The notes under the pieces: model-generated
Seen by the model: only the letters and a program-made list of their open reading frames with translations
Databases searched by the model: none
Told to the model about the DNA's origin: nothing
From: a virus
Reading direction: 5' to 3' (one strand)
Virus record (IMG/VR): IMGVR_UViG_3300020472_000178
Span: 1-23,177 of that record
DNA: 23,177 nucleotides
Program-made: the position numbers and the translations under genes
Shown here: in pieces, positions 7,307 to 15,016 of the stretch
Numbering within the stretch: position 1 is the first letter of the stretch
How the letters are laid out: the number at the start of each line of letters is the position of its first letter

Positions 7307-8175
7307 GCTTCAGGTATATATCCAAACCTATTTTCAAAATCTTTGTATATATTATAAAATCTTTTCTTACCTATATCCAATAACTCTGGTTCCAAAGGTC
7401 GTGTATCAGACCACTGATCTTTCAATCCTTTATACCTAGGTGCTTTTGGACCTAATTCTGGCCAATAAACATTATCATGTATTTTATTAATCTTACAACC
7501 TAAAAATTTTTCAACAGGTTCAACTTTCCCATCAAAAAATTCTTCCATTATAATTACATAAGTATCTGGAAATATAGATTGAAATTTATCAAATACTTTA
7601 GTATAGTATGATTCCAACCTCAATTTTATCTCACGTCCGTCAAGTTCTCTTCCAACAAATGCTAATCCTGGATCATTAGGTGTCATACGATGACATTGTG
7701 ACCACCATCTACGAATAGGATCTCTAAAAATAATCAAAACTTTTATATCAAAATAATCCTTTAGTACTTCAAATTTTTGTAAATTTATCTTATTATTTTT
7801 AGTAGAAAAATCAGCAACCATCGGATAGTCTGGATTTCTTTCAGACAACTTCTGATAATATCTTACATACTTCTCTAAAGTAAACTCAGGAGAAAAGAAC
7901 TCATCTATTTCCTCTTCAGTCCAATCACCAGGATCTAAGTAAAGTTCATTCTTATAATACTCATTAGTCTTTTGATATAATGGTCTATCATAAAACTTTC
8001 TTCTTATATTTTTAATCTCACTTGTATTTCTATCACGGTTAGCTAAAAGATAAAGATAATGATGCTCTTTATGATGTCCTGTATGACAAATCTTATTATC
8101 ATGAGAAAGTGTATACCATAAAGGAGTAGTGGCAGAAAACATCGTGCCACCACCCAATACTAAAGTCGGTTTCAC
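7291..8175 (-). CDS. Sulfotransferase-like protein (294 aa)
   Basis: The start is GTG at 8175, overlapping the previous stop as GTGA. It gives 'MKPTLVLGGGTMFSATTPLW', which aligns with the N-terminal 5'-phosphosulfate-binding loop of PAPS-dependent sulfotransferases (usual form KPTFLIIGxxKxGTTSL). The usual Lys of that loop is not obvious. At residues 146-159, 'VLIIFRDPIRRWWS' matches the 3'-phosphate-binding motif (RDPxxRxxS, with Arg151 and Ser159). Length fits the family. The product probably transfers a sulfo group from PAPS to a glycan or other acceptor, perhaps modifying a host surface or a virion protein; the acceptor cannot be told from sequence. The gene is embedded in the tail operon behind the 259-residue structural gene, so late expression is expected. 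Confidence 0.75.
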   Translation of the reverse strand: MKPTLVLGGGTMFSATTPLWYTLSHDNKICHTGHHKEHHYLYLLANRDRNTSEIKNIRRKFYDRPLYQKTNEYYKNELYLDPGDWTEEEIDEFFSPEFTLEKYVRYYQKLSERNPDYPMVADFSTKNNKINLQKFEVLKDYFDIKVLIIFRDPIRRWWSQCHRMTPNDPGLAFVGRELDGREIKLRLESYYTKVFDKFQSIFPDTYVIIMEEFFDGKVEPVEKFLGCKINKIHDNVYWPELGPKAPRYKGLKDQWSDTRPLEPELLDIGKKRFYNIYKDFENRFGYIPEAWHKV

Positions 8176-8951
8176 TTAGATAATCTAGACCATATAGGAT
8201 CATTATATTCTGGATCAGGATAATCTTGCCAAGTCTCACCCTCATACTCTACAACTAATGGATTCACATCCTTACGTTCTGCATATACATGATAAAAACA
8301 ATCCTTTACTCCTTCAAGGAGTATCATCTCATCATCCCATTCCTTTACTACAATATTCTGTATTGGTCCTGACCCTATTGCTTGAGTCTGAACAGTTATA
8401 CTATCAATATGTACTAAGTCTCTCCAATAATCTGGTAATGTAATATAATTCTCTTGAGTTCTACCTCTAAAATATACACCAACCTCTGGTCCCTCAATAC
8501 AAGCATACCTCAGTCTGTGACCTTCACCCTTGCTAGGATGAACCATATCAAATGGTTTTGGCTTTGAGTCTGCAACTGCATGTCTTTCTTCTAATCTACC
8601 AGTAGAAAGACAATCTACTGTGCTACTTACATAGACCTTACCTTCAATGTAACAATCACCTGTAATATGAACATGATCTGGACCTTGCTCACCCCTAATA
8701 GCAACATCACCATCAATATCTAATGCACGACCTGCTACACCAGGACTAAAATCACCAAGGTCAGTGCCAAGATTAGTAACTCCCTTAGCAAACCCACCTT
8801 CATGTTTACCAATAAAAGCAGGTCCAGTAGAACATAACGTACCATTGAAAGGTGCATCACCATTCAATGTCTCTGTTGCTTGGTCTAATTTGTTTGGTAT
8901 CTCTTGACCAATGTAGACCTTACCTGTTTCAATGTCTCTAATACCTGCCAT
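8172..8951 (-). CDS. Tail needle/fibre-like structural protein with HP/EGPE domain (259 aa)
   Basis: Residues 1-130 are Gly-rich with short beta repeats ('ALDIDGDVAIRGEQGPDHVH', 'ITGDCYIEGKVYV'), resembling beta-prism or needle segments. From about residue 130 comes a domain found widely at the ends of phage fibre proteins, with 'KPFDMVHPSKGEGHRLRYAC' followed by IEGPEVGVYFRGR, then LPDYW and beta strands to the end. It follows the needle gene by one base (TAG T ATG) with AAGGA as ribosome site, and overlaps the sulfotransferase by four bases. The context suggests a tip or side attachment on the central spike. A simple fibre role cannot be excluded. Confidence 0.7.
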   Translation of the reverse strand: MAGIRDIETGKVYIGQEIPNKLDQATETLNGDAPFNGTLCSTGPAFIGKHEGGFAKGVTNLGTDLGDFSPGVAGRALDIDGDVAIRGEQGPDHVHITGDCYIEGKVYVSSTVDCLSTGRLEERHAVADSKPKPFDMVHPSKGEGHRLRYACIEGPEVGVYFRGRTQENYITLPDYWRDLVHIDSITVQTQAIGSGPIQNIVVKEWDDEMILLEGVKDCFYHVYAERKDVNPLVVEYEGETWQDYPDPEYNDPIWSRLSK

Positions 8952-9678: not shown

Positions 9679-11751
9679 TTAGTAAATCCTCGCACAGTCG
9701 ATAACCCTAACAAGGGTAGCAGTAGCAGGTATAGCAGCCACTGTTTCTTCATAAGTCTTCCTTTCAGTAAACTTAGTAATAGGTCTTATTATAGCACCAA
9801 AACCTTTACCAGTAGGATCCTTGATAGTCAACTTAGGAATGTCTGTAAGACCAAGTTCACATTGACCAGACACACCAACAAGTCTACCATTCTCAATGGT
9901 AGGTGTTAGTTGACACCCACTAGGTGTAGTAATGGTTGTCTCTGGAGAATATCCCCCACCAGTTGATACTACTTCTGCACCATCAATAACACCTATAACA
10001 TCAACACCTTCATCAGTTGAAGTTGCTGTTTCAGGTCCAAGATAGCCACTACCAGGATTTGTTATAACAACATTCTCCACTTCTCCTGTTATTGGATTTA
10101 TAACAGCATGTCCAGTAGCACCTGCACCCCTATTACAATCATCAAATATACTAACATAAGGTGGAGCTGTAAATCCTAGACCAAGTGATTCCATATTTAC
10201 ACCAACAACCTTACCAGTTTCATTGATAACTGCATTTGCAACAGCACCAAATCCACCACCACCAAAAATTTCAATCCTAGGAGGTCCACATTTCTTCTGG
10301 TATGGGTTACATCCACCAACAAGAGATTCCATATTACCAATAGAACTTACTGATCCCTTTATACCTAGTACAGTGTTTATTGCACCACTCACTGCTCCTA
10401 TACCAGGGAACATTCCTTTCACAATACCCTCAATTCCTTGACCACTAAGAATACCAGTAGCAGTGCTAAGAACATTATTCAGATTCATTATACTCTTAGG
10501 ATCTGGACCAATATTAGTAATGAAATCATATGGTTGTGGATCACATTCGTTCTCTTCACAAGAAAGGAATGCTAAACCAACCTGAGCCAACTCCATTGCT
10601 TTCTCAATCAATCCCATGAAAGAAGGAATTGTTATACCTGCAAGTTGACCAATAGCAGCAGTAAATGGTGCTATAAGTCCTTGAATCTTATCTGCAATAT
10701 CACTAAGTAAACCACCAAGGAAACTTTCTGCAGCACAAAGTGGCATACTCAATAACTTCCCAAGCAATTCTTTCAAAAAGTTCTTGATCATATTCTGAAG
10801 TCCTTTCAGAAAATTCTCAATCAAACAAAAAATAGTATCTTGTTCTTTCTTTACTTCTAATTCTTTTATAAGATTTTCTGGATCTAAGAAAGTAAGAGCA
10901 TTCTCAACTCCTTCATTTACAGTCTTGAACAGTTCTGTTCTTGCTTTTCTTACTATACCAGATATTGCACCATCAAGTTCTCTTGCTGCTTTATCAACCA
11001 TCTTATCCATATTGACAAGAGTGCCAAGGATAGGATCAACATAACCATCCTTAACCTTCTCAAGTCTATTGACACCATCAAGAAATGTTTGGAGAATTTT
11101 AGTTGTCTCTCCACCCATACCAGCAGGTTTAGTACACTCTGCATCCGCTTGTTCAATCTTTTCTGCCTTATTATCCTGATACTTATTCATGGTGCTAGTC
11201 TTCACCAAATCCTGATTCAGGACTTGACTATTACTATCCGTAACACCACCAGGATCTGCAGGTTTATTCTCAGATGGTGTAATAGGTCTTATGTGTTTTC
11301 CATACTGTATTTCTTCATCATATCTAACAGGATAGAATCCAGTAGTGGCCTTATCTAATACCTCTGCAAATTCTGTGAATCCAAGAGCACCTTCATTAGC
11401 ATAAAAACATCCAAGAACCACTGGTTGCTGACCTTCTTCCCCATCAAGGAAGAATCCAAAAACCATCTCACCACCTTGCAGTGCAAAACTTGTACCACCA
11501 TAATTATTACCTGCACCAAACTGAGGTGATACTAAGAAATGAGCCCATGGTAGGTTCACATCATCTATACCACCTTCTTCTTCATTCTCACCAGGATGAT
11601 ATCCTAATATTCTTACCTTAGCTCTATAACCATTCTGAAAATTTTGATTATTTTTAGTACGCCATGTGGGATCTGGGGCTACCTGTCCAATGAACCAGTG
11701 AAACCCATCCTTACCTGCAAATTCTATTGGCACATGGCGTGAATCAAGCAT
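9679..11751 (-). CDS. gp5: gp5-like baseplate hub protein without lysozyme domain (690 aa)
   Basis: Residues about 15-122 form an OB-fold hub domain like the N-terminus of T4 gp5: 'FHWFIGQVAPDPTW', 'YRAKVRILGYHPGE', 'GGEMVFGFFLDGEEGQQPVV' then LGCFYAN. Residues about 205-480 are long amphipathic and hydrophobic helices with several Cys. Residues about 495-660 hold Gly-rich beta repeats of the form GxGAxAxVxxxTGxVxxVxI.xPGSGY ('VVITNPGSGYLGP'). I see no T4-type lysozyme between hub and C-terminus, so the common label hub plus tail lysozyme should not be assumed. The start overlaps the stop of the CP12-like gene (TAATG). It should sit at the centre of the baseplate with the gp27-like protein. 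Confidence 0.8.
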   Translation of the reverse strand: MLDSRHVPIEFAGKDGFHWFIGQVAPDPTWRTKNNQNFQNGYRAKVRILGYHPGENEEEGGIDDVNLPWAHFLVSPQFGAGNNYGGTSFALQGGEMVFGFFLDGEEGQQPVVLGCFYANEGALGFTEFAEVLDKATTGFYPVRYDEEIQYGKHIRPITPSENKPADPGGVTDSNSQVLNQDLVKTSTMNKYQDNKAEKIEQADAECTKPAGMGGETTKILQTFLDGVNRLEKVKDGYVDPILGTLVNMDKMVDKAARELDGAISGIVRKARTELFKTVNEGVENALTFLDPENLIKELEVKKEQDTIFCLIENFLKGLQNMIKNFLKELLGKLLSMPLCAAESFLGGLLSDIADKIQGLIAPFTAAIGQLAGITIPSFMGLIEKAMELAQVGLAFLSCEENECDPQPYDFITNIGPDPKSIMNLNNVLSTATGILSGQGIEGIVKGMFPGIGAVSGAINTVLGIKGSVSSIGNMESLVGGCNPYQKKCGPPRIEIFGGGGFGAVANAVINETGKVVGVNMESLGLGFTAPPYVSIFDDCNRGAGATGHAVINPITGEVENVVITNPGSGYLGPETATSTDEGVDVIGVIDGAEVVSTGGGYSPETTITTPSGCQLTPTIENGRLVGVSGQCELGLTDIPKLTIKDPTGKGFGAIIRPITKFTERKTYEETVAAIPATATLVRVIDCARIY

Positions 11752-12020
11752 TATTCGTCGTATACCCTACATTCTAATGCATCTGGATGATTGTCACAAT
11801 AGACTTCAAGTTTTGAATCCTGATGTCTTGTATGCCAATCATTTATTGTAGCACCACCTTCATTTTCTTCATCCTCTGTATGATCATGAAATGCATCATT
11901 ATGCATTTTTAAATCTTCTTCAGAATATTCAATCATACCATGATTAACATGTTCTTTATGATCCTTTGGATCAATATAAACCTCATGGTTTAGATCGTGT
12001 TCTGGAACTTTAGTAGTCAT
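11751..12020 (-). CDS. Small acidic His-rich protein ending in a CP12 C-terminal motif (89 aa)
   Basis: The last 20 residues read 'SKLEVYCDNHPDALECRVYD' plus a final Glu. This matches the C-terminal GAPDH-binding module of CP12, the redox regulator of the Calvin cycle: two Cys eight residues apart (Cys75, Cys84), Pro and Glu in the loop, and the ECRxYD/E end. The usual CP12 N-terminal Cys pair and the central AWDxVEEL segment are missing. In their place are about 55 acidic, His-rich residues (HDHTEDEENEGG) that look disordered. The gene lies one base after the gp27-like gene and its TAA overlaps the ATG of the gp5-like gene, so it is locked into the baseplate operon. It could bind host GAPDH or be a virion or chaperone protein that borrows the fold. 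Confidence 0.75.
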   Translation of the reverse strand: MTTKVPEHDLNHEVYIDPKDHKEHVNHGMIEYSEEDLKMHNDAFHDHTEDEENEGGATINDWHTRHQDSKLEVYCDNHPDALECRVYDE

Positions 12021-12021
12021 G

Positions 12022-13284
12022 TTAGGTTGCTTTCGAAGTGTCTCTTACAAGTGCGAGTCCAGTAAAATCTCCTTTAGGATTGCCAAATACATGGGACAAT
12101 CTAACAATAAGATACTTACCTGAATCAGGGTTGTTCTCAGTATCTTTATTACTCTTATTTAGAGCAGGGAACTTGACATTCAAGCTATCACCTACTCTTA
12201 AAGATATGTTCATAGGAACTGTAATATTCAAGACCTGAGAAAATAGTGACGCATATCTAGCATTAGAATGTGCTTGATATCTAGCTTGATCTTGTGGTGT
12301 ATCTAATTCTTCACCTTCTGGTGGAGGAGAAAAAGTAGCCATATCAAGAGTACCTAGTATAATTCTAGAATACTGTGAAGCAAAATCTGCTTGAGGAATT
12401 ACCTCATCTTCATTTGCTTTTTCCATCTGCGTACTATCTTGGTAATTATACTCCGAGAAGTATGGGTTTCTATCTATTATGTTGAAATACCAATTAGCAG
12501 TTCTATATTGACCTGCCCTAAGTTTCTTCAAAATATCATGACTTTCTTCCCACTGTGGATTAGCAGCTAGAGTATAATTAGTCTCTGGATCAAGAGACTC
12601 CTTGACTGCTCTCATTACATACTCTACTCCATCCTCTTCACTAATACCCTTTTCTAATAGAGTATCAACAGATTTAAAATGATATCCATCATAATTCTCA
12701 AAGAAGAAATATCCTCCAGTTCCTTTTTCCTGTGATGTAGCATCAGCACTAGCAGGAATTGCTTTTGGACATAATTTAGTAATCACCTTGAAAGGTCTTC
12801 TAAAATTACCAGTAAACCTAGATTCATTCTGAGTCTCTTCAACATCCATACGATCCTCTGAAACTTCCATCGTTTCCTTGAGAATCTTCTTTACTGACTC
12901 AGATATCTTACCCTCATACCTTGTCCAACATCTTGTAGTATGATTAGATATAGAACTCTTAGTCTCTAATGTAAGAGTATACAGTTCTCTCTTATTATCA
13001 ATCGAATTCTGACTAATATTAGTAATGTATAAATCATCAATCGCCCAAGGTTCATCAGAACTAGGATGTTTTATCTCTACTTTTGCCTTTATTCCACTTA
13101 CAATAGGTATATGACTCTTGAAACCTGTAGTATCAACAATCATTACCTCCATATGAATAGCAGCATCAATAATATCCTCATAATATCTCAATATTCCAAA
13201 CTGAGGTATCATATCATAACCATCAATTTCGAACTTAGTCACCTGATGACCCCTTGTCCAAATTTTATTTTGTCCGTCGGCCAT
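12022..13284 (-). CDS. gp27: gp27-like baseplate hub protein (420 aa)
   Basis: The length (T4 gp27 has 391 residues) and position next to gp5 fit the trimeric hub protein that joins gp5 to the tail tube. The N-terminus ('FEIDGYDMIPQFGILRYYED', 'AIHMEVMIVDTTGF') is the first beta-barrel-like domain. The motif 'GGYFFFENYDGYHFKSVDTL' at about 205-225 is typical of gp27 and other myovirus hub proteins. The C-terminal part ('NITVPMNISLRVGDSLNVKF', then GKYLIVRLSHVFG) is the last beta domain of such hubs. It follows the tape-measure-like gene by one base (TAAGATG). Confidence 0.8.
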   Translation of the reverse strand: MADGQNKIWTRGHQVTKFEIDGYDMIPQFGILRYYEDIIDAAIHMEVMIVDTTGFKSHIPIVSGIKAKVEIKHPSSDEPWAIDDLYITNISQNSIDNKRELYTLTLETKSSISNHTTRCWTRYEGKISESVKKILKETMEVSEDRMDVEETQNESRFTGNFRRPFKVITKLCPKAIPASADATSQEKGTGGYFFFENYDGYHFKSVDTLLEKGISEEDGVEYVMRAVKESLDPETNYTLAANPQWEESHDILKKLRAGQYRTANWYFNIIDRNPYFSEYNYQDSTQMEKANEDEVIPQADFASQYSRIILGTLDMATFSPPPEGEELDTPQDQARYQAHSNARYASLFSQVLNITVPMNISLRVGDSLNVKFPALNKSNKDTENNPDSGKYLIVRLSHVFGNPKGDFTGLALVRDTSKAT

Positions 13285-13285
13285 C

Positions 13286-15016
13286 TTATACAGTCATTAG
13301 AGATGTCATTTGAGCATATTTAGCTGCAGAATGGAATGGATTCGCTGCTATAACTCGTGTACCACCACCTGAAGATGCTGGTGCTTGTTGTACTATAGTG
13401 TCACCTTGTTGATTCACCAGTACTATATTTTGCGATCCTCCAAACTTACCATGAGGAACAATATATCCATCTTGTTCAGGTACAAATAACTCCTCACCAA
13501 TCTCACCAACAACATATGGTCTACCTGCTGAAACGTTACCACCACTTGCCTTTCCTTTTGGTAATAACCTTTGTGGACCTAGCTGCATACCAGACTCACC
13601 ACCTACCTGAACAGTACCATCTCCTGAAACATATCTCTTTTTGATTACCTTCGTAGTAGATTGATTTGCTCTCTTTATCAGAGGAGAATTGATTCTCTTA
13701 AGAATAAGGTCTAAAGCATTTACCTCGTTTTGAGCTTCTAATATTTGCCTTTCTGCTTCCCAATCATATTCTCTAAGTCTTCTACCAATATTCATAAGAT
13801 CTCTCCAGATCTTTTTCATTTGACCTACCTGGAACCAATTGGTTCTTATTAGATTCAACTTACCTGGAGGACTAGCAACTATTGGAGCACCTTGTCTTAT
13901 AATTTCTACACTTATTGGTTTAACATTGATTACCTGCTGAGAAGCTGGTTTGCCAAGGTTAAAAATTTTCATTATTAATGGATATTTTCTAGCAACTCTA
14001 GCAGCATTAGCCCATGCAGCAATATCTCCAATAATTGCATCAAAAGGTATTACATTGAATAAAATTGCAAGTGCTACAGCTCCAATAAGATCACCATATG
14101 GAATACTAAAAGGAACTTTTGGAGCAAGAGGAGTACTTGGTACAAATTCTTTACCCTCATCTTTCTCACCAGGTTTTCTACCAGTAAGTAATAAGAAAGG
14201 TGAATTTACATTCTCAAGTAAAGCTAAAATATCATCAAACTTATCAAGTGAATGTGAGAAAGAAGTTTTAGTTTGTTCTAAAGCAATACCTGCTACTTCT
14301 TGCTGCCTTCTATTAGCACCAGTAAGGAAATCTGCTATATTAGAACCTATACCTGATCCTATTATACTACCACCTACACCACCAATAAATCCACCAATAG
14401 CTGCTCCTGGAGCAGCACCTACTCCACCAAATAATGCACCAATTGATCCACCAACAATAGCACCTGCTTTTGCACCTGCAGCACCACCTACTAATGCACC
14501 TGCTAGTCCACCACCTGCACCAACAGTAGCTTGAGTAAGGTTTTGACCTTCTCCTAATCTAGTACCAAAATCTAACGCAGTAAATGCAACAGCAAGTGGA
14601 CCTACCCTTGGAGCACCTCTAAGACCACCAGCACCTCTAGTTACTTGTGAACCACGGAAAGGTAATCTAAATCTAGGTCTACCACCTTGAGTTACTCTTG
14701 GTCCTCCACTAGGTCTACGAGGTCCACCAAATCCACGAGGTCCACCACGACCACGAGGAAAAAATCTTCTAGTAATACCACCTAAAATCCTACCACCAAT
14801 AAGACCTTCTAATATACCAAAAGCCCCACCTGATTTTTCATTAGATGCATTCTCTACAGATCTGAGAGTTATTCTTCTCTTTTCAACTAATTCCTTTCTA
14901 AGTTTAAGAGATTGTGCTTCAAGTCTTCTTTCAATCCTATAGCTAGTCCTCAAGTCACCTAACAATCTAGTAGATGATCTAACTGTCTTATTTGATACTA
15001 GTGCTAATCTACTCAT
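13286..15016 (-). CDS. Tape-measure-like tail protein with VGE/ELFVP motif (576 aa)
   Basis: The N-terminal 60 residues are a basic coiled-coil helix ('YRIERRLEAQSLKLRKELVE'). Residues about 83-140 are an Arg/Gly-rich, RGG-like tract ('RGRGGPRGFGGPRRPSGGPR'). Residues about 155-230 are Gly/Ala-rich and hydrophobic, and a second hydrophobic stretch follows near 300-335. Near the C-terminus, residues about 490-525 read 'GGNVSAGRPYVVGEIGEELF' then VPEQDGYIVPHG, a motif seen at the end of many phage tail tape-measure proteins. The start overlaps the preceding stop as ATGA. T4 uses gp29 as tape measure in this hub cluster; this protein or its upstream neighbour is the best candidate here, though coil length is shorter than expected for a single ruler. 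Confidence 0.65.
   Translation of the reverse strand: MSRLALVSNKTVRSSTRLLGDLRTSYRIERRLEAQSLKLRKELVEKRRITLRSVENASNEKSGGAFGILEGLIGGRILGGITRRFFPRGRGGPRGFGGPRRPSGGPRVTQGGRPRFRLPFRGSQVTRGAGGLRGAPRVGPLAVAFTALDFGTRLGEGQNLTQATVGAGGGLAGALVGGAAGAKAGAIVGGSIGALFGGVGAAPGAAIGGFIGGVGGSIIGSGIGSNIADFLTGANRRQQEVAGIALEQTKTSFSHSLDKFDDILALLENVNSPFLLLTGRKPGEKDEGKEFVPSTPLAPKVPFSIPYGDLIGAVALAILFNVIPFDAIIGDIAAWANAARVARKYPLIMKIFNLGKPASQQVINVKPISVEIIRQGAPIVASPPGKLNLIRTNWFQVGQMKKIWRDLMNIGRRLREYDWEAERQILEAQNEVNALDLILKRINSPLIKRANQSTTKVIKKRYVSGDGTVQVGGESGMQLGPQRLLPKGKASGGNVSAGRPYVVGEIGEELFVPEQDGYIVPHGKFGGSQNIVLVNQQGDTIVQQAPASSGGGTRVIAANPFHSAAKYAQMTSLMTV

Follow-up and report, generated by a model that had tools for sequence, protein, structure and literature searches.

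The 89-residue protein encoded between the gp27-like and gp5-like genes of the window, the whole 23,177-nucleotide stretch of viral DNA analysed here, ends in what its sequence identifies as a genuine CP12 C-terminal module. It is very likely that this protein is a T4-GC 63-type cyanophage CP12, which would act in the cytoplasm as a GAPDH-binding inhibitor of the Calvin cycle, and that its gene is a passenger at the gp27/gp5 position, probably co-transcribed with its neighbors. The features concerned are as follows.

11751..12020, minus strand: CP12-tail protein, 89 aa, phrog_2603 / T4-GC 63 family
11754..11846, minus strand: CP12-type C-terminal module spanning residues 59-89 (INDWHTRH...YCDNHPDALECRVYDE), with the predicted GAPDH-binding tail and the pair Cys75-x8-Cys84 (Pfam, PDB CP12 chains, dN/dS)
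11880..12020, minus strand: N-terminal module, residues 1-47, His/Asp/Glu-rich and strongly conserved (alignment, dN/dS)
12022..13284, minus strand: gp27-like tail protein (phrog_350), upstream flank (PHROGs, E=2e-77)
9679..11751, minus strand: gp5-like baseplate hub / tail lysozyme-type protein (phrog_1922), downstream flank (PHROGs, E=3.5e-87)
13317..13323, minus strand: CTAAATA, which resembles a late promoter and precedes the start of the gp27-like gene by about 33-39 nt; a candidate promoter of the gp27/CP12/gp5 run

The ORF begins with an ATG at 12020 and its stop ends at 11751 on the minus strand. The initial annotation had placed it 1 base away from both neighbors. There is indeed a 1-base gap on the gp27-like side, where the gp27-like stop ends at 12022, but on the gp5-like side the two genes overlap by 1 base, since the gp5-like start lies at 11751 within the sequence TAATG. 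Downstream of the gp5-like gene the window encodes a 259-aa protein (8172-8951) that belongs to phrog_17490, a family of unknown function (E=1.2e-45), and proteins of this type were also found downstream of gp5-like genes in three other loci.

The C-terminal end of the protein is YCDNHPDALECRVYDE, which includes Cys75-x8-Cys84, and these are its only two cysteines. Residues 64-88 matched positions 45-70 of the 70-position Pfam CP12 profile (PF02672) with E=2e-8 and 35.3 bits, above the curated cut-off of 22.7 bits, and the PDB chains found by phmmer were only those of CP12 or CBS-CP12, such as 3zdf, 6gfo/6gve, 3b1j and 3qv1. Both cysteines as well as E83, C84, R85, V86, Y87 and D88 were invariant in 81 sequences, namely the window protein and 80 relatives. 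The claim of a CP12-type tail is thus borne out, and the Cys pair has been retained in the close relatives. The AWD_VEE core and the N-terminal Cys pair are absent from the protein sequence, and the Pfam match begins only at profile position 45, in agreement with the earlier statement that the CP12 N-terminal module and the AWDxVEEL core are missing. The match is limited to about 25 residues and the remainder is unrelated to host CP12, so one might ask whether the likeness of the tail is coincidental or convergent and unrelated to GAPDH. This is extremely improbable in view of the Pfam score and the invariance of the tail; moreover, the loose pattern C-x8-C-[RK][VI][YF][DE] occurred once in the six frames of the window and never in 300 shuffles, and the tail pattern is not due to chance. 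A single CP12 match was found in the window, a 23-kb fragment of a genome that may carry a second copy elsewhere. None of five phage CP12 proteins had a match in NCBIfam, and an AlphaFold2 monomer model built on 22 aligned members was uninformative (mean pLDDT 44).

Residues 6-89 of the protein match phrog_2603 in PHROGs (E=1.6e-18). Its closest match in an isolate phage, shared with P-SSM5, is PSSM2_066 of P-SSM2 (62% identity, 267 bp), a member of T4-GC 63. Table 3 of Sullivan et al. 2010 (PMC3037559) assigns CP12 to T4-GCs '337 + 63' and gives a length of 267 bp in the column of its first phage; we equated this entry with PSSM2_066 by its length and T4-GC number. The same study reported talC and cp12 at variable positions, 'near gp5' included (PMC3037559). 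Cyanophage CP12 proteins are also known to resemble mainly the C-terminal region of CP12 (CP12 review, PMC3906501). The contrast that the initial annotation drew with the known phage CP12 therefore does not hold: the known proteins themselves mainly resemble the C-terminal region, the other type occupies the same slot in several isolates, and the 2010 study had already listed T4-GC 63 as CP12 and noted cp12 positions near gp5. The window gene adds a new sequence to an established phage CP12 family, and its kind of location is likewise known. All 12 isolate genomes that were searched had a single CP12 match, which belonged to one or other of the two phage types; this suggests that the types are interchangeable and do the same job.

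The location itself is recurrent. Among the 80 IMG/VR sequences closest to the window protein, 68 had both flanks; this fraction is biased because the relatives were chosen by similarity. The other type, the phrog_627-like CP12, lies directly between the gp27-like and gp5-like genes in SynMITS9220M01, DSL-LC03 and S-CAM9, and it is also in the slot in Syn9, S-CREM1 and S-SZBM1, with a cpeT, tRNA, 2OG-oxygenase or lipoprotein gene in between. A look at the same place in other cyanophages thus found the slot occupied in most of the closest relatives and, by the other type, in these six isolates. The remaining 12 of the 80 relatives were outside the slot; all 11 off-slot copies listed had small accessory genes as neighbors, and several had methyltransferase-like genes downstream, as judged by reading the sequences and not by profile search. 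No gene separates gp27 from gp5 in P-SSM2, Syn1, P-HM2 and AG-345-P14, which carry CP12 elsewhere; the two genes either overlap or lie no more than about 22 bases apart. Because the two genes abut in these four phages, the CP12 gene is not required at the junction and is a passenger there. The location that had seemed odd is used by two N-terminally different CP12 types, and gp27 and gp5 abut in the phages that carry CP12 elsewhere; this favors a metabolic gene lodged within a structural operon over a structural use of CP12.

With the CP12 of S-SRM01 as the query, a viral scan returned mainly loci without recognizable flanks (both flanks in 2 of 80), although this detection of gp27 and gp5 may miss divergent genes. 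Apart from one host CP12, a genome scan yielded just three phage-like contigs. Cassettes of gp27-like, CP12-tail and gp5-like genes were also seen on contigs from deposited MAGs assigned to Actinomycetota, Flavobacteriales and Gammaproteobacteria; these contigs look like mis-binned cyanophage contigs. In some isolates the junction also holds cpeT, tRNA-Val, a 2OG-Fe(II) oxygenase or a lipoprotein A gene, so that it looks like a small hot spot for auxiliary genes.

The position of the gene in the gp27-like/gp5-like run, as given in the initial annotation, is confirmed, and its transcription with this run is probable from the placement of promoter-like motifs. Since CTAAATA is found upstream of the gp27-like gene and the 90 bases that precede the CP12 start contain no copy, CP12 is probably co-transcribed with the gp27-like and gp5-like genes from a promoter upstream of the former. 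The gp27-like gene itself contains a further copy of the motif, about 140 bases before CP12 begins. Among the slot loci, TAAATA preceded the gp27-like gene in 45 of 68 versus 4.3 in shuffles, the slot CP12 in 23 of 68 and the gp5-like gene in none of 58; these counts are only a hint, as related loci are not independent. The CP12 of P-HM2, which is of the other type and lies beside talC, belongs to the middle expression cluster and is strongly expressed in light (PMC5082946), and ATAAATA also precedes this middle-class cp12. It would be surprising for a metabolic switch to be co-transcribed late with the baseplate genes.

Conservation within the protein is highest in the tail. By simple pairwise counting across 81 sequences, dN/dS was 0.029 for residues 59-89, 0.30 for the linker and 0.071 for residues 1-47. 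Many His, Asp and Glu among residues 1-47 were invariant in these sequences. Similarity to host CP12 was not detectable in the N-terminal part; the phage family phrog_2603 was its only family match, and its conservation is near that of the CP12 tail. It is also kept in the off-slot copies beside small accessory genes. The invariant residues and the low dN/dS argue that the N-terminal module has a constrained role that CP12 homology does not explain, and because this part shares nothing detectable with host CP12, part of the function of the protein may differ from that of host CP12. A further idea, which we regard as rather unlikely, is that the slot provides late, baseplate-coupled expression that renews the Calvin-cycle shut-off during assembly, and that the N-terminal module has a ligand of its own, either a metal or a second target in the host, which would make the protein a two-part effector distinct from the ordinary phage CP12.

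The initial annotation had also offered two readings tied to the baseplate, both of which are disfavored and unsupported by the present comparison. The tight spacing between two structural genes, seen in 68 of the 80 relatives, might suggest that the virion carries the protein in its baseplate or spike and introduces it into the host, where it would inhibit GAPDH as infection begins. However, some relatives sit far from structural genes, CP12 is not named among the 14 virion proteins in the S-CREM1 paper (PMC9964418), and mass spectrometry of S-SZBM1 virions (PMC9146016) detected the gp27-side neighbor (_65) and the gp5-like hub (_61) but not the slot CP12 (_64), which is of the other type. 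Proteins of 87 and 122 aa were detected in the same virions, though the absence of a small protein is weak evidence. Delivery with the virion is therefore very improbable. The position in the operon, together with the strong purifying selection on the N-terminal module, would also fit recruitment of the CP12 tail into the baseplate hub, for its structure or its assembly, but the empty slot in P-SSM2, Syn1, P-HM2 and AG-345-P14, the off-slot copies with the N-terminal module next to small accessory genes and the tail being the most conserved part make such a role highly improbable.

The preferred reading remains a cytoplasmic CP12. The protein would be made in the host cytoplasm, where its C-terminal hairpin, when oxidized, is predicted by homology to bind host GAPDH. 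Such binding would damp the Calvin cycle and could leave NADPH for nucleotide synthesis. The gene would be a passenger at the gp27/gp5 junction, where auxiliary genes and tRNAs are known to occur, and is probably co-transcribed from a promoter upstream of the gp27-like gene. Of the earlier proposal of a GAPDH-only CP12 made late in infection, the true C-terminal module without the PRK-binding core stands, whereas GAPDH binding itself is inferred by homology and the late timing is a prediction.

Compared with known proteins, the window protein is closest to PSSM2_066 of P-SSM2 (T4-GC 63, phrog_2603), with which it shares the N-terminal module and the CP12 tail; the 62% identity extends over almost the entire length, and the size is similar (88 aa). 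PSSM2_066, however, is located among small hypothetical genes, whereas the window gene is in the gp27/gp5 slot. The phrog_627-like CP12 (T4-GC 337 in P-HM2; also Syn9 gp17, S-CAM9 and SynMITS9220M01) shares the CP12 tail and likewise has no AWD_VEE; it is present in one copy per genome in those searched and occupies the slot of the window gene in several isolates. It differs from the window protein in its length of about 70-75 aa, in its N-terminus and in that Pfam CP12 covers most of its length. CP12 of cyanobacteria and plants has the same C-terminal Cys pair, proline loop and GAPDH-binding ECR(V/I)YD end, but the classical host form has an N-terminal Cys pair and the AWD_VEE core, neither of which is present in the window protein; cyanobacteria also have variant CP12 forms without some of the classical features. 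CP12-like fusions such as the GapB C-terminal extension and CBS-CP12 likewise carry the CP12 tail on an unrelated N-terminal part, which is GAPDH or CBS in these fusions and a short His/Asp/Glu-rich module in the window protein.
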